Source: Cyanobacterium stanieri LEGE 03274
GTDB lineage: Bacteria; Cyanobacteriota; Cyanobacteriia; Cyanobacteriales; Cyanobacteriaceae
Assembly: GCF_015207825.1 (NCBI RefSeq)
Contig: NZ_JADEWC010000002.1
Span: forward strand, 62,001-126,000
DNA length: 64,000 bases
Reading direction: 5' to 3'
Made by a program: the position numbers and the translations under genes. Shown one piece after another: positions 38,496 through 39,961 of this stretch; within the stretch, counting starts at the first letter, position 1, and each line of letters begins with the position of its first letter. Below the pieces are notes generated by a model. It was not told the origin of the DNA. It ran no database searches and saw only the letters and a list, made by a program, of their open reading frames with translations.

Positions 38496-38556
38496 AACCT
38501 TACTCCCCTACTCCTCATCTCCCCACCACCCCTACTCCCCACCTTTTATCGCTAAA

Positions 38557-38611
38557 GTTCAACAAAAGTTCATCTCAGGTTCATAGGAAAGTCATAGACA
38601 CTGTTTATACT
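38557..38611 (+). promoter_or_regulatory. Four 11-bp direct repeats and -10 box upstream of the HtrA-type protease
   Basis: GTTCA motifs start at 38557, 38568 and 38579, and a variant AGTCA at 38590: a strict 11-bp period, one helical turn. Eleven bases later is TATACT (38606-38611). The layout is that of a PhoB/OmpR-family response-regulator array activating a promoter without a good -35. Which regulator binds is not known; SphR/PhoB-like is one option. Confidence 0.6.
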
Positions 38612-38740
38612 AAATTTAGTCAGCTTAAAAAGGTTTTCCTCTTTATCTCCTTCGCACTTTAAGCTGACTTCCCCCAAACCATATTTCTAAAAATCTATAA
38701 TTATTAGTAAAAGTAAATAATCAATGAAAGGTAATATATT

Positions 38741-39961
38741 ATGAGTAAAAAATCTTTATTATCTAAATTAAGCGCAGGTACATCCTTATTGGTAGTTGGT
38801 TTAGGAATTGGAATGGGGGTTAGTTCGTTAACAAATATTTCCCAAACATCTGCCTTTACCCTACCCTTTTCTTCTAGCGAAGAAAGTAATAACCTTCAAG
38901 AAAGTAATAATCCTTCCCCTGTTGCTAGGATTCCTGAAATGAATCGCAATGGCAATGTAAACTTTGTGGCGGAGGTGGTGCAAGAGGTAGGGCCGGCGGT
39001 GGTTAGAATTAATGCTTCTCGTACTGTTAGTACACAAGTTCCACCTATTTTTAATGATCCTTTTTTCCGTAGATTTTTTGGGGATCAAATTCCCAATATT
39101 CCTGAGGAGGAAACAAGGGAAGGCACTGGCTCTGGCTTTATTATCAGCGCCGATGGTAAAATTTTGACTAATGCCCATGTGGTGGAGGGGGCTTCTGAGG
39201 TTTCCGTTAGTCTTAAGGATGGACGGGTTTTAGAAGGGCAGGTTTTAGGTACTGATGCCCTGACGGATTTGGCTGTTATTGAGGTGGATGCGGATAATTT
39301 GCCCGTGGCAAGGTTAGGTAATTCTGATGATTTAATTATTGGGGAATGGGCGATCGCCATTGGTAACCCCCTTGGATTAGATAATACTGTTACTACGGGT
39401 ATTATAAGTGCTACGGGGCGATCGAGCGCCCAAATTGGTGTAGGAGATAAACGCCTTGACTTTATCCAAACCGATGCCGCCATCAACCCGGGTAACTCAG
39501 GTGGCCCCCTATTAAACGCCCAAGGGGAAGTAATTGCCATCAACACCGCTATTATTCGTAATGCTCAGGGTTTAGGCTTTGCCATTCCCATCAACCGAGC
39601 TGCCGAAATTGCCGAACAACTAATTACCGATGGTAGAGTCGAACATCCTTACATTGGAATTTCCATGGTTTCCATTACCCCTCAAAATCGCCAAAGAATC
39701 GAAAGCCAAGGCTTTAGACTATCAGGGGATGAACGTGGAGTTTTAGTAGTACAAGTTGCCCCCAATTCCCCCGGGGCTAGAGCTGGTTTACAACCAGGGG
39801 ATATTATTACAGGTATTGGCCCTGAGAGCGTCACTGATGCCGAAGCAGTACAAAAAGCCGTTGCTTCGAGTCGTGTGGGTAATGATTTAGAGCTCAGGTT
39901 AAAACGCAACACAGAAGAAGTTAGTCTTAATGTTACCCTCGGAGTATTACCCACCCGTTAA
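38741..39961 (+). CDS. HtrA/Deg family serine protease with PDZ domain
   Basis: This is an envelope quality-control protease of the cyanobacterial HtrA/HhoA/HhoB group; which of the three cannot be settled here. The 406 residues begin with an N-terminal signal or anchor segment (about 5-35), then a chymotrypsin-fold domain with the triad His146 (LTNAHVV), Asp176 (LTDLAVI) and Ser253 ([10 protein letters not shown]). One PDZ domain occupies about 305-400. It acts outside the cytoplasmic membrane or in the lumen. The promoter carries four 11-bp repeats, and a good terminator follows. Confidence 0.93.

Follow-up and report, generated by a model that had tools for sequence, protein, structure and literature searches.

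In enterobacteria, the Sigma-E system with the sRNAs MicA and RybB and the protease DegP responds to envelope stress in two directions: the DegP/HtrA protease is raised, while the sRNAs lower outer-membrane protein synthesis. In Streptococcus a single two-component regulator, CiaRH, is described as controlling both HtrA and the csRNAs (PMC4507080). The htrA gene of Synechocystis has been reported to be induced by heat, salt, osmotic and other stresses (PMC6789579) and by copper (PMC4182526), and the function of cyanobacterial Deg proteases has been described as not known (PMC4877387). Among cyanobacterial sRNAs, Yfr1 of Nostoc is reported to have porins, TonB transporters and further envelope genes as its targets (PMC6974561). 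Yfr10-like sRNAs present the Yfr1 motif in a loop atop a stem, SyR5 being the Synechocystis case; according to the same source, Yfr10 of Prochlorococcus base-pairs with Yfr2 and also targets primary metabolism, and what regulates yfr10 is unknown (PMC6778093). An sRNA with read-through into a gene has been termed an actuaton, and the main text of that report does not mention htrA (PMC5386190). Searches of open PMC papers gave, at the level of titles and abstracts, no link between an sRNA and htrA in cyanobacteria, and slr1204 together with sRNA had no match in the open PMC literature. The family of putative sRNAs with Yfr1-like loops ahead of htrA that we describe here is so far unnamed.

The window, i.e. 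the whole stretch of 64,000 nucleotides that was analysed, contains on its forward strand an array of four (G/T)TCA half-sites with 11-bp pitch (38557–38594). The units are GTTCA at 38557–38561, 38568–38572 and 38579–38583 and AGTCA at 38590–38594. The −10 box TATACT (38606–38611, forward strand) lies 11 nt past the last unit and is conserved as TTTATA-T in the family alignment; judged from distance alone, transcription would start at about 38618. Downstream on the same strand is htrA (38741–39961), encoding a Deg/HtrA serine protease with trypsin and PDZ domains. All of this agrees with a sequence-only reading of the stretch, which had named four repeats at exact 11-bp steps, the −10 box and an HtrA-type protease. 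The pattern KTCA-N7-KTCA-N7-KTCA-N7-KTCA has a single match in the window, with 0 mismatches. When up to one mismatch is allowed, 0.02 matches are expected in the window and 2 of 100 shuffles had one; a chance origin of the array is rejected.

The same reading had called for the array to be looked for in front of orthologous htrA genes and elsewhere in the genome. We compared the regions upstream of the best HtrA match in each of 15 family genomes and found the array in 13, with the CA of all four units invariant at 11-bp steps; elements across the order carry it as well. The absence of conservation that the reading had set as its own refutation is thus not what the relatives show. Elsewhere in the genomes it does not recur: the strict pattern (≤1 mismatch) occurs once per genome in 12 of the 15, always at this promoter (reversed control: 0–2 per genome), and is absent from G003, where the units have diverged, and from G005 and G006. 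In the latter two, which belong to genus g2 of the same family, array and RNA are both missing before the closest htrA (L016 and L017), and L017 contains no element on either strand. Across 67 elements, which were picked with the RNA model rather than the array, include the window's own and, being related to each other, are not independent cases, the best four-unit TCA score averages 11.09 of 12 at 11-bp pitch and reaches at least 11 in 50. At pitches of 7–10 and 12–15 the means are 6.2–7.9 and no element reaches 11. The last unit ends 23 nt upstream of the RNA-model start in 48 of the 67. Locus L193, whose contig begins 42 nt upstream, is left out of these array statistics.

Direct half-sites at about 11-bp pitch are a trait of binding sites of the OmpR/PhoB family, and the array has this geometry close to the −10/−35 region. 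A response regulator of this family may bind the four units. The SphR Pho box of cyanobacteria, a CTTAACCT-like unit, is not matched by the units found here, which are mostly GTCA, TTCA or GACA. The HLR1 motif of RpaB has TTACA-type repeats at 10-bp pitch, and the array is indeed spaced differently, since pitch 10 scores 6.2 of 12 when measured with TCA units rather than with the HLR1 sequence. The CopR site of Synechocystis, given as TTCAT-N4-5-TTCAT (PMC4182526), shares the directly repeated TTCAT half-site with the array but differs from it in spacing, which is N6 here (11-bp pitch), and in the units, which are mostly GTCA here. Thus, the proposal of an OmpR/PhoB-type array driving htrA is well supported in its geometry by conservation, but it was incomplete, as a conserved structured RNA directly behind the promoter had been overlooked.

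More specifically, folding, alignment and covariance models reveal a stem-loop of about 51 nt (38618–38668, forward strand; arms 38619–38629 and 38658–38668). It begins 7 nt past the −10 box, at about +1, and was omitted from the earlier coordinates although it is part of the same unit as the array. The 63-nt stretch containing it folds at −16 kcal/mol (z-score −5.5), and its loop GGTTTTCCTCTTTnnCTCCTTCGC is nearly invariant across the family. With a covariance model of the stem-loop (R1), 13 of 15 family genomes each show a single strong match (E 1e-15 or better), and other genomes of the order have weaker ones; the best R1 E-values in G005 and G006 are 0.08 and 0.4. Being an inverted repeat, the element is, as expected, matched by R1 on its other strand too. 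Second R1 matches in G032 and G179 have no array. Rfam returned nothing at curated score for the stem-loop; sau-13, sraA and sR39 stayed below their curated scores and were taken as chance. In an alignment of 27 sequences that was fitted to the structure, 97% of the stem cells are paired as compared to 19–50% in slid versions, and 30 cells are changed on both sides as compared to a shuffled mean of 9.4. Counts of pairs showing at least one double change (4 vs shuffled 3.5) and of pair types (9 vs shuffled 8.1) are not unusual in these 27 sequences. When only the 13 family sequences are used, 3 of 500 shuffles attain the covariation score. A conserved regulator array with a conserved structured RNA behind it is firmly established by computation.

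The outer stem GTCAG/CTGAC (38619–38623, 38664–38668) is invariant in the 27 sequences. There the half-site sequence TGTCA recurs at +1, not in phase with the array; given this recurrence and the lack of variation, the outer stem may have a role at the DNA level too. In 58 of 67 elements the stem is followed by a T-rich tail, a slight undercount due to misread tails of L182 and L197, in which the stem ends have changed. The tail is missing in four of the five genomes of the own genus, and a discrete sRNA is therefore less certain there.

A second model (R2) gave 71 matches in 70 of 388 genomes of the order (E up to 0.01), mostly before htrA. The own genome has three HtrA-type genes and one strong R2 copy, at the htrA described here. 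In the class sample outside the order there were just two doubtful matches (L257, L258), both set aside as they have no array. Among 79 named htrA loci, an R2 element is located upstream of htrA at E <0.01 in 12, namely SU3, two Crocosphaera, a Xenococcaceae MAG, six Microcystis, Hydrococcus and Synechocystis salina. Loci named Nostoc within this set had no R2 match at E <0.01, and the match in Anabaena L076 is behind htrA, not upstream. Five R2-positive genomes of one genus we take to be Synechocystis. Gene context was examined for 70 of the 71 matches. htrA is downstream on the same strand in 57 loci, and in 3 of these a gene that we take from its sequence to be sppA is divergent upstream. 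Ten loci, all of genus g23, have the divergent sppA and no htrA; in the next 1.3–1.5 kb their largest ORF is antisense in six and on the same strand, with varying size, in four. The remaining three have neither gene (L193, at a contig start, L208 and L220). L208 and L220, with neither array nor htrA, were judged false, and the second G292 match (L158) was likewise set aside as false. As array and RNA are kept without htrA in ten loci, the protease is probably not the sole output, which argues for an RNA acting in trans. The stem-loop RNA is probably an sRNA, since it is kept beside sppA without htrA in one genus. At L195, L198 and L217, sppA and htrA diverge from a shared region that holds array and RNA, and one array may serve both protease genes there.

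The RNA is similar to Yfr1 in being short and in having a CU-rich anti-Shine-Dalgarno motif. Eight of 68 RNAs hold CUCCUCACAC, which agrees with the Yfr1 motif as given in PMC2190773 at 10 of its 11 nt; the other forms are CUCCUUCA (21), CUCCUCAC (12), CUCCUUCGC (10), CUCCUCA (10), CUCCUUACAC (2) and a further one (5). The loop of the own RNA holds the variant CUCCUUCGCAC. The exact Yfr1 motif is not in this RNA; of its three copies in the own genome, one has flanks that look Yfr1-like by eye. In two of nine genomes searched (G023, G303) one exact copy is inside the element. Porin and TonB targets, known for Yfr1 (PMC6974561), are predicted for the RNA described here. The architecture is different: Yfr1 has two stem-loops with ACUCCUCACAC unpaired between them, whereas here a single stem carries the motif in an internal loop. 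Unlike Yfr1, the RNA is linked to htrA/sppA, and the own genome has a separate Yfr1-like locus (L242, by eye). In many OprB porin leaders (L259–L279, L319–L348) the start codon is directly preceded by GTGTGAGGA, which is complementary to the Yfr1 motif; control of these porins by Yfr1 itself is therefore probable. The loop-on-stem architecture of Yfr10-like sRNAs is found here as well, with CUCCUCACAC in the eight RNAs and a variant in the own one. Yfr10-like RNAs, however, are said to lack conserved synteny and structure, while here promoter array, stem and neighbour are conserved, and SyR5 is described as linked to sll0737, not to htrA (PMC5386190).

The loop stretch ATCTCCTTCGCAC (38645–38657, forward strand) is complementary to start sites of outer-membrane genes, as seen by pairing prediction. 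With the own loop, the start site of the own TonB receptor pairs at −34.2 kcal/mol, which none of 1000 shuffled loops reached, and that of the own porin L304 at −20.7 kcal/mol, which none of 1000 equalled; for the TonB receptor of G007, tested with the own genome's loop, 1 of 1000 shuffled loops did as well. For seven of 21 OprB porins from four family genomes, pairing with this loop is stronger than for any of 46 window ORFs; one of the five own porins belongs to these seven, and the other four are weak (−1.7 to −6.5). The seed site GTGYGAAGGAG is in modest excess in 15 genomes (28 occurrences vs 14 for the reversed control). Nine of these sites are the RNA itself. Five of the 19 non-self sites are at outer-membrane gene starts, i.e. 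a porin in G000, G001 (assigned by sequence likeness only) and G004 and a TonB receptor in G000 and G007; the others comprise a sugar transferase and a transposase fragment as well as sites within or close to other frames. Of eleven loop-only R1 matches considered as candidate antisense targets, just two, both TonB-receptor sites, are clearly at start codons. For porins of two other families, pairing with the genome's own RNA was stronger than with an RNA from the other clade in 13 of 30 cases, a chance-level result that lends no support; loci were available for these 30 out of the 53 porin matches listed. Action in trans on outer-membrane mRNAs is predicted as the likeliest function of the RNA, with one test negative. 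Ahead of the TonB-receptor target L316 (G000:C1:157500–160700) there is a same-strand gene with an end that looks AraC-like by eye.

Could the stem-loop act in cis only, as a stabiliser, attenuator or protein-binding leader of an htrA mRNA made from the array promoter? The same-strand htrA in 57 of 70 loci and the absence of the T-rich tail in four of five own-genus genomes would fit such a role. We nevertheless consider it unlikely, because the ten loci of one genus keep array and RNA with neither htrA nor any uniform downstream gene, and because the loop sequence is conserved, not just the stem. These ten loci also speak against an ordinary regulator-controlled htrA promoter with a functionless stem-loop, to which the sequence-only reading amounts. 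Conservation of array and promoter agrees with that explanation, but the covariation in the stem and the invariant loop do not, and we regard it as highly improbable.

If the RNA does act in trans, its main targets might lie outside the outer-membrane genes, e.g. metabolic mRNAs or Yfr2-type RNAs that it titrates as an sRNA of the Yfr1/Yfr10 kind. The pairing of Yfr10 with Yfr2 and its primary-metabolism targets in Prochlorococcus (PMC6778093) set a precedent. Against it, outer-membrane genes stand out among start-site matches of the family loop (5 of 19 non-self sites, with one seed only), and we give this possibility a small chance.

We somewhat favour a model in which a regulator of the OmpR/PhoB type turns on an sRNA that silences outer-membrane mRNAs and, through transcriptional read-through, also HtrA. 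The regulator would bind the four-unit array and activate the promoter, whose first product would be a hairpin RNA of about 51–60 nt. The accumulating RNA would expose the CU-rich, Yfr1-like anti-Shine-Dalgarno sequence in its loop, pair with start sites of outer-membrane mRNAs (porin and TonB receptor in the own genome) and thereby lower their translation. Transcription past the hairpin would yield the htrA mRNA. The RNA tail-to-ATG gap is 19–47 nt in 6 of 7 inspected loci outside the family (104 nt in L156), which leaves little room for a second promoter and fits read-through into htrA. In this respect the unit may resemble an actuaton, with which it shares a terminator-like end just ahead of a gene (PMC5386190). 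Actuatons are defined by a discrete abundant sRNA and a downstream gene without its own start site, but the own genus has a TATAAT in the gap. This possible second htrA −10 box (38696–38701, forward strand), recognised by sequence only, is present in the RNA-htrA gap of the own-genus loci L003–L006; a second promoter may help htrA expression in this genus.

In this way a single envelope-stress signal would increase the protease and at the same time reduce the input of newly made outer-membrane proteins. The enterobacterial Sigma-E system is alike in coupling more protease to less outer-membrane protein synthesis through sRNA under envelope stress, but it differs in using an alternative sigma factor and separate sRNA genes. 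CiaRH also differs, having separate csRNA genes and other targets such as comC (PMC4507080); the likeness is drawn without a claim of homology. Going further, this sRNA family, with its Yfr1-like loops, a two-component regulator as its driver and a place ahead of htrA (in some genomes with sppA diverging on the other side), could be the centre of a cyanobacterial response to outer-membrane stress in which making the protease is tied to the silencing of porins and TonB receptors. We advance this wider reading tentatively, as one that may about equally well fail. Under the favoured model, the unit would be a stress switch that makes a clean-up protease while silencing new outer-membrane proteins. 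The unit supplies a concrete promoter, an RNA and a predicted target list, and it can be tested close to standard laboratory strains because it is present in Synechocystis salina and in the five genomes presumed to be Synechocystis.

Upstream of the unit, a pyrimidine-rich tract with CTACTCCCC-like repeats is located between lysC and the array (38496–38543 of the window).
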